Shown here piece after piece: positions 22,161-25,187 of a DNA stretch of 42,321 nt (position 1 is the stretch's first letter; every line of letters starts with the position of its first letter). The notes beneath the pieces were generated by a model. That model worked only from the letters and a program-made list of their open reading frames with translations. It was not told the DNA's origin and ran no database searches. The stretch is from a virus. The stretch spans positions 426 to 42,746 of IMG/VR virus record IMGVR_UViG_3300030103_001002; one strand, 5' to 3'. A program made the position numbers and the translations under genes.

Positions 22161-22459
22161 ACAACAACAACTACAGTCAAACCGAGGGGGGTGGAAATTT
22201 AGACTGATACACATAGTGAGGTCTAACGGGTGGGCTGGATAGACCGTTAAAAGCAGAAAAGGATTTAGCAAATCAATTTATTTACCAAGTCTATAGACTG
22301 CCAACAGTCCACTTTTTACAAGTGATAAAATACTTTTATAGGCTTTTCATGCGGTAGGTCGTCCAACTATCACTCACACCGATTACTAACGAATGTTGAC
22401 GTTGAGTATTTATACTCTTATCCGTCCCTATACCTTACCAGTACAATATGCATATAGTT

Positions 22460-22487
22460 GCAAGTTCAATTCTTGCATACCGCACCA
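22460..22487 (+). other. 3' end of a tRNA gene, candidate attP core
   Basis: The sequence has the exact layout of a tRNA 3' end: a 5-bp T-stem GCAAG/CTTGC around the 7-base T-loop TTCAATT, then the 7-base acceptor strand ATACCGC, discriminator A and CCA (22485-22487). The rest of a tRNA is absent: no GCGGTAT acceptor strand or D-arm lies at normal distance. Related podovirus P-SSP7 carries a stretch identical to part of a host tRNA gene as a presumed integration site. No integrase gene is visible in this window. Confidence 0.6.
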
Positions 22488-22506
22488 CACTAAACCAAAT
22501 CAAATT

Positions 22507-23130
22507 GTGACCTATTCCCAACTATCACACAATGCACGTGAGATTGTCGCCAAGTTTACGCTTGCCACGTCTCAAGAAGTGCAGCTAGGTTGTGACTGGT
22601 ATCCGTCCGCTCTCAAGATTGCCGCACGCATTGGCGAGACTTATGGCGTATCAGCTGAGACCGTAGCAGGTGTTATAGCTGCCCTATCACCTAATAACAG
22701 ATGGGAGCGTAACATTATAGACGCTGAGTCTATCATCAAATGCTGGCGTGCTGGCGGTACTCGTTCTGACCTACTAGCCGTAAAAGTATGTACCTATGGC
22801 AAAATGAAAGAGAAAGCTGTGGACATACTGCTCACACGTATACCTATTGCCACTATCCTCAAGGGCAAAAAGATTGTTGAGTTTTTCAACTGCATCACCA
22901 ACCCCGCACTCAATGACGTGTGTATTGACGGGCATGCCTATTCCGTATGGTTCGGGCAACGCTTGACTATGAAAGAAGTTCCACCTATTGGCGTGAAGCT
23001 GCGTGCACAAATCAAGACTGATTATCGTGACGCTACTGCCTTCATCAATGAGGAGCTAGGCGAGCACTACACCGCAGCCACTATTCAAGCCATCACTTGG
23101 GTTACACACAAACGTATCTACAATGTCTAA
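22507..23130 (+). CDS. Early protein, possible HhH-type DNA glycosylase-like family
   Basis: 207 residues from GTG at 22507. The frame is open further upstream to 22393, but that part translates the tRNA fragment and is unlikely to be protein. Conserved-looking blocks are GCDWYPSALKIA, VAGVIAALSPNNRWERNI, ILKGKKIVEFFNCI, CIDGHAYSVWFG and IQAITWVTHKR. This order occurs in a phage protein family of unknown function, and the alternation of helices with K-x-x-x-F and D-x-H-A resembles helix-hairpin-helix DNA glycosylases. That fold is a guess. It ends 8 bases into the next gene and lies two genes upstream of a cytosine methyltransferase. Confidence 0.6.
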   Translation: MTYSQLSHNAREIVAKFTLATSQEVQLGCDWYPSALKIAARIGETYGVSAETVAGVIAALSPNNRWERNIIDAESIIKCWRAGGTRSDLLAVKVCTYGKMKEKAVDILLTRIPIATILKGKKIVEFFNCITNPALNDVCIDGHAYSVWFGQRLTMKEVPPIGVKLRAQIKTDYRDATAFINEELGEHYTAATIQAITWVTHKRIYNV

Positions 23131-23396
23131 ACAACTCACACTCATGCCCATACTTGACGGTTCTGTATTCGTCAACAAAAACGTCATCAATGACCCAGTC
23201 CTTCTATCCGTACTTACTGACCTCCATGACAGAAACTACCAATTCCCAACCCAAGAAGTCGAACGCTGGTACTTCGATACCGTCAAAGGACTCTCACGTA
23301 CTCCCAGATGCAGAGGCTGAACGCAGACGTGTATTCTATCGTAAGATGGCATACATCGAGATGAAAAAACTACGCCCCAAACACCCACACGTATGA
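23123..23396 (+). CDS. Small early protein, readable only with a +1 frameshift
   Basis: ATG at 23123 overlaps the stop of the previous gene, and the reading frame runs to TGA at 23320. A second frame, +1 relative to it, carries a protein-like C-terminus (DAEAERRRVFYRKMAYIEMK) ending at 23396, where TGA overlaps the methyltransferase ATG. Both ends therefore fit a single gene of about 90 residues if the ribosome moves +1 near 23303-23306, for example at CCC-A, giving SRTP-DAEAERRR. Explanations are a one-base sequencing error, a real mutation, or programmed +1 frameshifting. No family recognised. Confidence 0.5.
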
Positions 23397-24283
23397 GAGT
23401 ACTAGACCTATTCTCTGGCATAGGTGGCTTCGCCTATGCTGGACACCTCCTCGGTGGTTTCACTACCCTCGACTTTGTAGAGATTGACCCATACTGTCAA
23501 AAGATTCTACGCAAAAACTTCCCTAACGTACCTATCCATGATGACATCACGACATTTGACACATCTTACAGATTCGGTGAGTACGATCTCATCACAGCTG
23601 GATTCCCATGCCAAGACCTCAGCTCGGCTGGCAAACAAGCTGGACTGGGAGCTGGCACTCGCAGTGGCTTGTTCTACAGGGTTATGCAGATCGCTCGGCA
23701 AGTTCGACCTAAGTACATCCTCCTCGAAAATGTTGCAAATACCATTAGTCACAGCAACGGGCAAACCTTCCAACAAATCCTCCACGAAATTGCCAAAAGC
23801 GGGTATAATGCTGAGTGGGGCATTGTATCAGCACGAGACGTGGGTGGCTGCCACCTCCGCAAACGCATCTGGATTATTGCCTACGCCAACGACCCAAGAT
23901 ACTATCGCACATCCAAATGCCAAGATAACAGCAAATGGACGGAGACTATCGCAGACAGGTACAAGTCACAGCCTCAACCTACAGGACAAGCTCACCCTGT
24001 TGCCAACACCACGAGCGTCAGAGTGGAAGGGCATAGGGGTCAAGGGCAGCAAGAGCAGCTTGCGTTGGCAGAAACAGGGCTACTTGACTGGAGTGATACA
24101 GGAATCCGACTCAGTTCCGACTGGCGAACCTATGCATCTCAACCCATGCTTCGTAGAGGAGATGATGGGCTATCCCGTAGGGTGGACAGACTTAAATGCT
24201 TAGGCAATACAATATGTCCGCAAACCGCAACAATTCCACTCAATCGTATCAAACAACTTGACGCTCTCCTCCAGCATAGCTAA
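23393..24283 (+). CDS. DNA C5-cytosine methyltransferase
   Basis: 296 residues. Transfers a methyl group from SAM to cytosine C5, probably to protect phage DNA or alter recognition. The motifs are in order: I (MRVLDLFSGIGGF, residues 1-13), acidic residue ending strand 2 (VEIDP), IV with the catalytic PCQ at 72-74, VI ENV at 112-114, VIII LRKR at 155-158, and a C-terminal GDDGLSRRVDRLKCLGN block with motif IX/X residues (LGNTICPQ). The target-recognition part (about 165-255) is short and repeats a VANTTS-like motif. The +1 frame over the same DNA also reads like a methyltransferase C-terminus. ATG overlaps the previous stop by four bases. Confidence 0.9.
   Translation: MRVLDLFSGIGGFAYAGHLLGGFTTLDFVEIDPYCQKILRKNFPNVPIHDDITTFDTSYRFGEYDLITAGFPCQDLSSAGKQAGLGAGTRSGLFYRVMQIARQVRPKYILLENVANTISHSNGQTFQQILHEIAKSGYNAEWGIVSARDVGGCHLRKRIWIIAYANDPRYYRTSKCQDNSKWTETIADRYKSQPQPTGQAHPVANTTSVRVEGHRGQGQQEQLALAETGLLDWSDTGIRLSSDWRTYASQPMLRRGDDGLSRRVDRLKCLGNTICPQTATIPLNRIKQLDALLQHS
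23865..24203 (+). other. Second, methyltransferase-like reading of the same DNA in the +1 frame
   Basis: In the +1 frame the DNA encoding the methyltransferase target-recognition region reads ASGLLPTPTTQD, SQTGTSHSLNLQDKL, LLPTPRASEWKG, LNPCFVEEMMGYPVGWTDL and then stops. These LLPTP-x-A repeats and the FVE.MMG.P.GWT.L ending are typical of another class of phage C5 methyltransferase C-termini. The two readings line up motif by motif (IWIIAYAND with SGLLPTPTT; DDGLSRRVDR with MMGYPVGWTD). It is not shown to be translated; reaching it needs a frameshift from the 23393 frame. Confidence 0.35.
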
Positions 24284-24620: not shown

Positions 24621-24820
24621 TGCCAACCATGACTGTTACTTTTGACCGCAGTGTAGCCTCCTCTATCTTGGAGGCTGGCTACTCCTATACACCATCTGGA
24701 AATTCCACTATCGCTGTGGATTTCGATTCAGACAGAGACATCTACGATGCACTAGCTGACGCTGGGCTTAACCACATTGCAGACTCTGTGATCTACACCA
24801 ATTACTATGAAGTTAATTGA
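24620..24820 (+). CDS. Small hypothetical early protein
   Basis: 66 residues, ATG overlapping the previous stop by one base. Acidic, with a likely beta-helix arrangement (MTVTFDRSVASSILEAGYSY, ADAGLNHIADSVIY). Ends 14 bases inside the endonuclease VII gene. No family recognised. Confidence 0.55.
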   Translation: MPTMTVTFDRSVASSILEAGYSYTPSGNSTIAVDFDSDRDIYDALADAGLNHIADSVIYTNYYEVN

Positions 24821-25187
24821 AAGTGAGATCCAAGAAGCCTACAAATCAGGACAGGCTAAACAGTGCAAAGAGTGTGGAGATCTCAAACTTCTCAAAGACT
24901 TTCCGCTCTTCAGTACTGCGGGAGCAGGTCGCAAGAATACTTGCAAGCATTGCTCCAACCACCAAGCAACGGTCAGACGTAGACTGAGACGGCAGCATCC
25001 TGTACCTGCCCCAGGCGATTGCCCAGCATGCGGTAGGCATACTACTAACTGGGTTCTTGACCACGATCACAAAACTGACAGATTCAGAGGCTACATCTGC
25101 GACTCCTGCAACGTAGCTTTTGGTAAGTTTGGTGACGACCCTTCCACAATGCAACGCTCACTTACTTGGCTTCAATCACATGGCTGA
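24807..25187 (+). CDS. Endonuclease VII-like Holliday junction resolvase
   Basis: 126 residues. The fold is that of T4 endonuclease VII (His-Me finger nuclease with a zinc site): CKECGDLKLLKDFP and CKHCSNHQ supply zinc ligands, CPACGR a second pair, and LDHDHKTDRFRGYICDSCN the active site with the DHDH and N residues, followed by GKFGDD. These enzymes cut branched DNA during packaging or recombination. Unusually, a T7-type endonuclease I is also encoded at 29231. Confidence 0.88.
   Translation: MKLIESEIQEAYKSGQAKQCKECGDLKLLKDFPLFSTAGAGRKNTCKHCSNHQATVRRRLRRQHPVPAPGDCPACGRHTTNWVLDHDHKTDRFRGYICDSCNVAFGKFGDDPSTMQRSLTWLQSHG

Follow-up and report, generated by a model that had tools for sequence, protein, structure and literature searches.

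Nested genes in two reading frames of a podophage probably encode complementary subunits of one C5 cytosine methyltransferase

A C5 cytosine methyltransferase of the podophage studied here appears to be encoded by nested genes in two frames of the same DNA, whose products, alpha and beta, would be complementary and form one active enzyme; we give this reading a probability of about 0.86. The DNA analyzed, referred to as the window, is a stretch of 42,321 nucleotides (positions 426 to 42,746 of the virus record IMGVR_UViG_3300030103_001002); the source record has 42,746 bases and carries a T7-like RNA polymerase and a T7-type terminase. According to the model, the two genes lie on one strand; frame 0 would encode alpha, in which a weakly constrained linker joins the catalytic domain (motifs I-VIII) to motif X, the element that completes the SAM-binding domain, and the +1 frame would encode beta, with an N-terminal part derived from the DNA of the catalytic domain followed by the target-recognition region and motif IX. 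We infer the expression, assembly, activity and specificity of both chains: translation of beta would most likely begin at an internal start codon of its own, alpha and beta would assemble into one active methyltransferase, and this enzyme would most likely protect the phage DNA from host restriction, given that phage methyltransferases usually do so. Both frames are maintained by selection and alpha is devoid of motif IX; judged by its sequence, beta is a homologue of the C-terminal half of single-chain relatives that occur naturally. The features of the region are the following.

23393..24283, + strand: alpha, C5 cytosine methyltransferase subunit of 296 aa with motifs I-VIII and X (PF00145, phrog_363, structure match to M.HhaI)
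23481..24203, + strand: beta, +1 open reading frame with the recognition region and motif IX, 240 codons from stop to stop including the stop codon
23538..24203, + strand: most likely beta coding sequence, with the first ATG as candidate start (second ATG at 23541; similarly placed ATG in S-H1, L008 and L009)
23603..23617, + strand: alpha motif IV, FPCQD, with the catalytic cysteine (P and C invariant in 48 alphas)
23726..23740, + strand: alpha motif VI, ENV (E and N invariant in 48 alphas)
23852..23872, + strand: alpha motif VIII, HLRKRIW, beyond which the conserved frame passes from alpha to beta (substitution classes flip)
23868..23894, + strand: beta SGLLPTPTT, where the recognition region begins
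23969..24193, + strand: alpha residues 193-267, linker that the beta recognition region overprints (pLDDT mostly under 50)
23997..24020, + strand: beta LLPTPRAS, second LPTP element (P156, T157 and P158 at least 90% conserved)
24138..24176, + strand: beta motif IX, LNPCFVEEMMGYP (L201, N202, P203, V206, M210 and G211 invariant in 59 betas)
24197..24283, + strand: alpha motif X, CLGNTICPQ, and C-terminal helix, where frame 0 is again the constrained frame (pLDDT 81-94)

Residues 1-188 of alpha match PF00145 (E 3e-48), and the protein matches phrog_363 (E 9e-70); against C5 enzymes of the PDB, including M.HhaI, the match extends only to motif VIII, about position 166 of 284 profile positions. 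The alpha model superposes on the catalytic domain of M.HhaI over approximately 168 columns with an rmsd of 1.7; it is confident at residues 1-170 and at the motif X helix, and the stretch between these is predicted to be disordered. Alpha has the SAM-binding catalytic domain of a C5 methyltransferase, including its PCQ and ENV motifs; motifs IX and X, in contrast, are not both in the catalytic chain, since X is in alpha and IX is found only in the +1 frame. Motif IX was recognized in frame 0 in none of the 78 loci sampled by alpha, nor in the PCQ frame of any of the 152 loci sampled through beta; single-frame relatives with motif IX in the catalytic chain do exist in mycobacterio- and gordoniaphages. 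A preliminary description of this DNA had assigned frame 0 to an intact C5 methyltransferase; the residues LKCLGN proposed as its end are internal, and the protein continues to position 24283, with the C-terminus ...TICPQTATIPLNRIKQLDALLQHS.

The same description had noticed that the +1 frame reads as a second methyltransferase C-terminus. Its frame-0 protein and +1 peptides are exact, with an offset of one base: IWIIAYAND (23867-23893) lies over SGLLPTPTT (23868-23894), PVANTTSV (23996-24019) over LLPTPRAS (23997-24020), and GDDGLSRRVDR (24158-24190) over MMGYPVGWTD (24162-24191). This C-terminus is real and belongs to a conserved methyltransferase family, but the open frame is longer than was claimed (23481-24203, 240 codons, with the stop codon at 24201-24203), and therefore most of the alpha catalytic domain is overlapped too. 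Residues 16-237 of beta match phrog_1008, annotated as 'DNA methyltransferase' (E 1.8e-14), a family matched by 65 out of 65 betas; a tblastn search with the beta translation matched 88 phage records, and the comparison with phage S-H1 gave 33% over 234 aa (E 6e-22). The preliminary description would have taken a lack of methyltransferase homologues, or hits to shadow frames only, as a sign of coincidence; the +1 translation does have such homologues, and some of them are single-frame enzymes or free-standing genes and not shadow annotations. Nothing useful was found with the beta sequence in Pfam, NCBIfam or the PDB, and the AlphaFold model of this chain is of low quality (pLDDT 57). LLPTP elements and LNPCFVEEMMGYPVGWTDL are present in beta, and its segment LNPCFVEEMMGYP corresponds to the motif IX-X part of the single-chain protein RitaG gp71; given that natural single-chain fusions carry this segment, it is read as the recognition/IX part of a methyltransferase. 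The role of the N-terminal part of beta is less certain than that of the recognition part, because the constraint in the catalytic overlap belongs mostly to alpha. The number of LPTP elements varies among beta recognition regions (L007, L027, L043 and others), which suggests a modular gain and loss of units in this part of the protein.

The +1 frame is open far beyond chance. For the gene in the window, it was open in none of 500 alpha-preserving shuffles, in which synonymous codons are permuted within the gene, so that the frame-0 protein and the codon usage are kept and the codon order is broken. No stop was seen in the +1 frame versus 4.8 expected, and 18 were present in the +2 frame; this count is bounded by the open frame itself and hence biased, and therefore stops were recounted between fixed alpha landmarks and by sampling through alpha only. 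Across 189 motif-bounded loci there were 45 beta-frame stops versus 876 from the alpha-preserving shuffles, and 160 loci were fully open in beta versus 7 expected, with 2138 stops in the +2 frame; these loci are best-scoring matches, not a random sample, and are partly related. Among viral loci sampled through alpha alone, beta was fully open in 75 of 78. Ordinary C5 methyltransferases served as a control that comprises four usable bacterial genes and two of phages: the four genes, taken from the same bacterial genomes, had 31 beta-frame stops versus 44 expected, whereas the nested ones had 0 versus 38, and the two phage genes had 17 and 25. Codon-usage log-odds against other genes of the window did not clearly separate the alpha and beta frames.

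Both frames are constrained and the stronger constraint changes frame at motif VIII, as revealed by the patterns of codon positions, substitution classes and fourfold-degenerate sites. The divergence of alpha fourfold-degenerate sites is 52% before and after the overlap, and falls to 33% in the catalytic overlap (p 3e-7) and to 16% in the recognition overlap (p 5e-21). In the pooled data, changes that alter beta and are silent in alpha occur at 1.98 times the expected number in the catalytic part and at 0.84 times in the recognition part; for changes that alter alpha and are silent in beta, the values are 0.74 and 1.49, respectively. In pairs of relatives, the fastest codon position is the third of frame 0 up to motif VIII, the first of frame 0 (the third of beta) from motif VIII to the end of beta, and afterwards the third of frame 0 again. 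When the window is compared with L009, the three codon positions differ by 0.115/0.077/0.323 across the catalytic overlap and by 0.257/0.073/0.083 across the recognition part; in the latter, 4 beta-only changes were seen versus 10.3 expected and 25 alpha-only changes versus 10.1, and the amino-acid difference is 8% for beta and 31% for alpha. The alignments were built on the alpha protein, which disfavours beta in this comparison of the two frames.

Internal initiation is the likely way in which beta is made across the family, given the enrichment of ATG codons preceded by a Shine-Dalgarno sequence and the double start found in one subgroup. Upstream of the PCQ motif, 56 loci have an ATG with a Shine-Dalgarno match of at least 5 bases (8.7 expected), and 26 have one with a match of at least 6 (2.3 expected). 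A subgroup represented in phages, Pseudomonas, Acinetobacter and Rhizobiales has alphas that start with ATGAATGAG, which places the ATG of beta four bases after that of alpha; the double start ATGAATGA is found in 16 of 16 MNEL alphas, all of which use AAT and not AAC, although these loci are related and do not represent 16 independent events. In the window no Shine-Dalgarno sequence is visible for the start of either alpha or beta, and for this reason the beta start listed above is only a candidate. The double start is also seen, as GTGAATGAG, in L286 (E. coli PCP07014, 1200-1961), a prophage methyltransferase marked in RefSeq as a pseudogene, with an internal stop that is present in both alpha and beta; since the stop disrupts both frames, this locus is uninformative on which of them matters.

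The two parts of the enzyme are found in several natural forms. Sampling through beta gave 152 loci: 145 nested, 7 split or truncated and none fused, always with the identical relative frame. RitaG gp71, in contrast, is a single chain in which PF00145 spans positions 1-317 of the model and residues 177-361 match phrog_1008 (E 6e-65); Tweety gp72 and Lton gp60 are single-frame fusions that resemble it. Phanphagia shows 96% identity with RitaG over the first 185 aa, but its alpha stops early and the C-terminal segment of the RitaG type is a separate gene in the +1 frame (gp66); thus, nearly the same segment is in the alpha frame in one phage and in the +1 frame in the other, which bears out the earlier suggestion that the two C-termini are related by a frame change. 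In Firecracker and in L045/L087, alpha terminates downstream of motif VIII, and beta is the chain that carries motif X; the frame-0 sequence beneath beta has numerous stops in L045. The Flavobacteriales contig L178 has an alpha that retains motifs I-VIII and X and, behind it, beta as a gene of its own; the relic of beta in the +1 frame of alpha is broken and many stops interrupt the relic of alpha beneath the beta gene, a pattern that looks as it would after a duplication with the loss of one function per copy. From the location of the constraint and from the fused relatives we infer that each chain may be half ancestral and half overprinted. In L189/L191 (Bacteroides, 1777-2893), a stop interrupts alpha downstream of motif VIII, beta is intact and the later part of alpha is open again to near motif X; alpha may be truncated here, or the gene may be decaying.

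Taken together, alpha and beta are most likely two subunits and not alternative recognition versions made by frameshifting, given that beta is probably started internally. Such alternative versions, made by ribosomal frameshifting, were the second of two ideas offered in the preliminary description. A programmed +1 frameshift after motif VIII, by which some ribosomes would produce a fused catalytic and recognition protein, agrees with the existence of single-chain relatives, with the fact that a single +1 shift would rebuild a complete enzyme in the split forms such as L045, L002 and L283, and with the absence of a Shine-Dalgarno sequence for beta in the window. However, beta is in the +1 frame, the shifted product of the nested form would be devoid of motif X, beta starts that bear a Shine-Dalgarno sequence are enriched about six-fold, one subgroup has the 4-base double start, and in L178 beta is a separate gene; moreover, a shift at that point requires no constraint on the N-terminal part of beta, where constraint is observed. 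For these reasons frameshifting is not the best explanation, and we consider it unlikely, though less firmly for the window itself, given that neither frame shows a Shine-Dalgarno sequence there.

It is very improbable that the locus encodes two alternative methyltransferases, with a full-length alpha that acts alone on one site and a beta that provides a second specificity. Alpha is indeed open throughout the recognition region, and the predicted recognition domain of M.EcoHK31I lies in alpha (PMC3404938); nevertheless, alpha residues 193-267 are largely predicted to be disordered, they change faster than beta in the same DNA (between the window and L009, 31% of the amino acids differ in alpha and 8% in beta), and frame 0 has no motif IX. 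The idea that the two frames are alternative recognition versions is not supported, since the frame-0 part is poorly conserved, predicted to be disordered and without motif IX, and the +1 part is conserved and has it. Finally, the +1 frame could be a by-product of the alpha sequence and its codon usage, and the family entries shadow annotations; in line with this, SHAKTS and SSSKM of the window beta, and DFPAKTS and SSWKTSQ of its relatives, overlie the invariant FPCQD and ENV of alpha. Such a coincidence can hardly be the explanation, and for the family it is refuted by the shuffles (45 stops versus 876), by the constraint on alpha synonymous sites, by the better conservation of the recognition region in the +1 frame, and by the existence of single-frame and free-standing versions of beta.

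The two-subunit arrangement can be placed among known enzymes. In M.AquI, motifs I-VIII are on one chain and motifs IX-X on the other, and M.EaeI is an isoschizomer of M.EcoHK31I (YGGCCR). For M.EcoHK31I, it was reportedly described by Lee, Kam and Shaw in 1995 that the beta gene is inside the alpha gene in a different frame. M.AquI and M.EcoHK31I are known two-polypeptide C5 methyltransferases, and the latter has motifs I-VIII and X on the larger chain and motif IX on the smaller one, with the predicted recognition domain placed in alpha (PMC3404938). The partition of motifs in the window matches the one described for M.EcoHK31I: alpha has motifs I-VIII and X, motif IX is on a separate, smaller polypeptide, and the beta gene is nested in alpha in another frame, as occurs also in 145 of the 152 classified loci. 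Because of this partition and of the nesting reported for M.EcoHK31I, the pair is most likely a new, phage-borne member of the same kind; it differs in that its conserved recognition region appears to be in beta and not in alpha, and in that it belongs to a podophage, whereas M.EcoHK31I is known from a bacterial restriction-modification system. M.AquI resembles the window in that the recognition/IX part and the catalytic motifs I-VIII are on different polypeptides; however, alpha of the window keeps motif X and nearly the whole beta gene lies inside the alpha gene, and it is in L002, L045 and L283 that motifs IX and X are both on the second polypeptide, as in M.AquI. The monomeric enzymes M.HhaI and M.HaeIII have the catalytic fold in common with alpha, but in the window the recognition domain and motif IX are in the other frame.

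It is fairly probable that nested dual-frame pairs represent a major class of C5 methyltransferases of phages and prophages, spread over many phyla, in which each chain would be half overprinted, both parts would be under selection, and the forms would interchange repeatedly. If this is true, they would rank with the longest and most widely distributed same-strand overlaps so far known from bacteria and their viruses; the alpha linker would be a shadow of the recognition domain, and the N-terminal part of beta a shadow of the catalytic domain. In the literature searched, we found no description of a wide distribution of the nested pair; it is this breadth that seems to be undescribed so far. 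PHROG holds phrog_363 (alpha) and phrog_1008 (beta) as two separate 'DNA methyltransferase' families, and the entries examined do not state that one DNA usually encodes both. Records of Paenibacillus larvae phages annotate both overlapping frames as methyltransferases, and in an analysis of 48 genomes of these phages a table has two neighbouring DNA-cytosine methyltransferase entries (PMC6070908). At the sensitivity used, few members of the family were found in plasmids (4 records).

In phages and prophages the nested arrangement is widespread, and most often its annotation is wrong: as a rule, gene callers retain a single frame, so that records show a methyltransferase without a recognition domain, a 'hypothetical protein' or a pseudogene, and the annotated frame cloned alone would probably yield an inactive enzyme. 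In L003 (Microcystis phage Mwe-JY08, 392-652), alpha and beta are both open, yet the annotation covers no more than a fragment of beta, as a 'hypothetical protein'; this is an example of a wrong-frame annotation. With one enzyme in nested, split, fused and duplicated forms, the family offers a natural laboratory for the birth, upkeep and separation of overlapping genes, and what the overprinted halves do becomes a testable question. It also offers naturally two-part methyltransferases for targeted-methylation work, in which M.EcoHK31I is already in use (PMC3439449).

No restriction enzyme was recognized among the few neighbouring genes that were checked around the methyltransferase pair. About 500 bases downstream of it, at 24807-25187, the window encodes a recombination endonuclease VII (PF02945, E 2e-13). 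Directly upstream of alpha (22393-23130) there is a DUF7178 protein of 245 residues (PF23802, E 5e-47) whose function is unassigned, and in S-H1 a hypothetical protein is likewise located immediately upstream of alpha.
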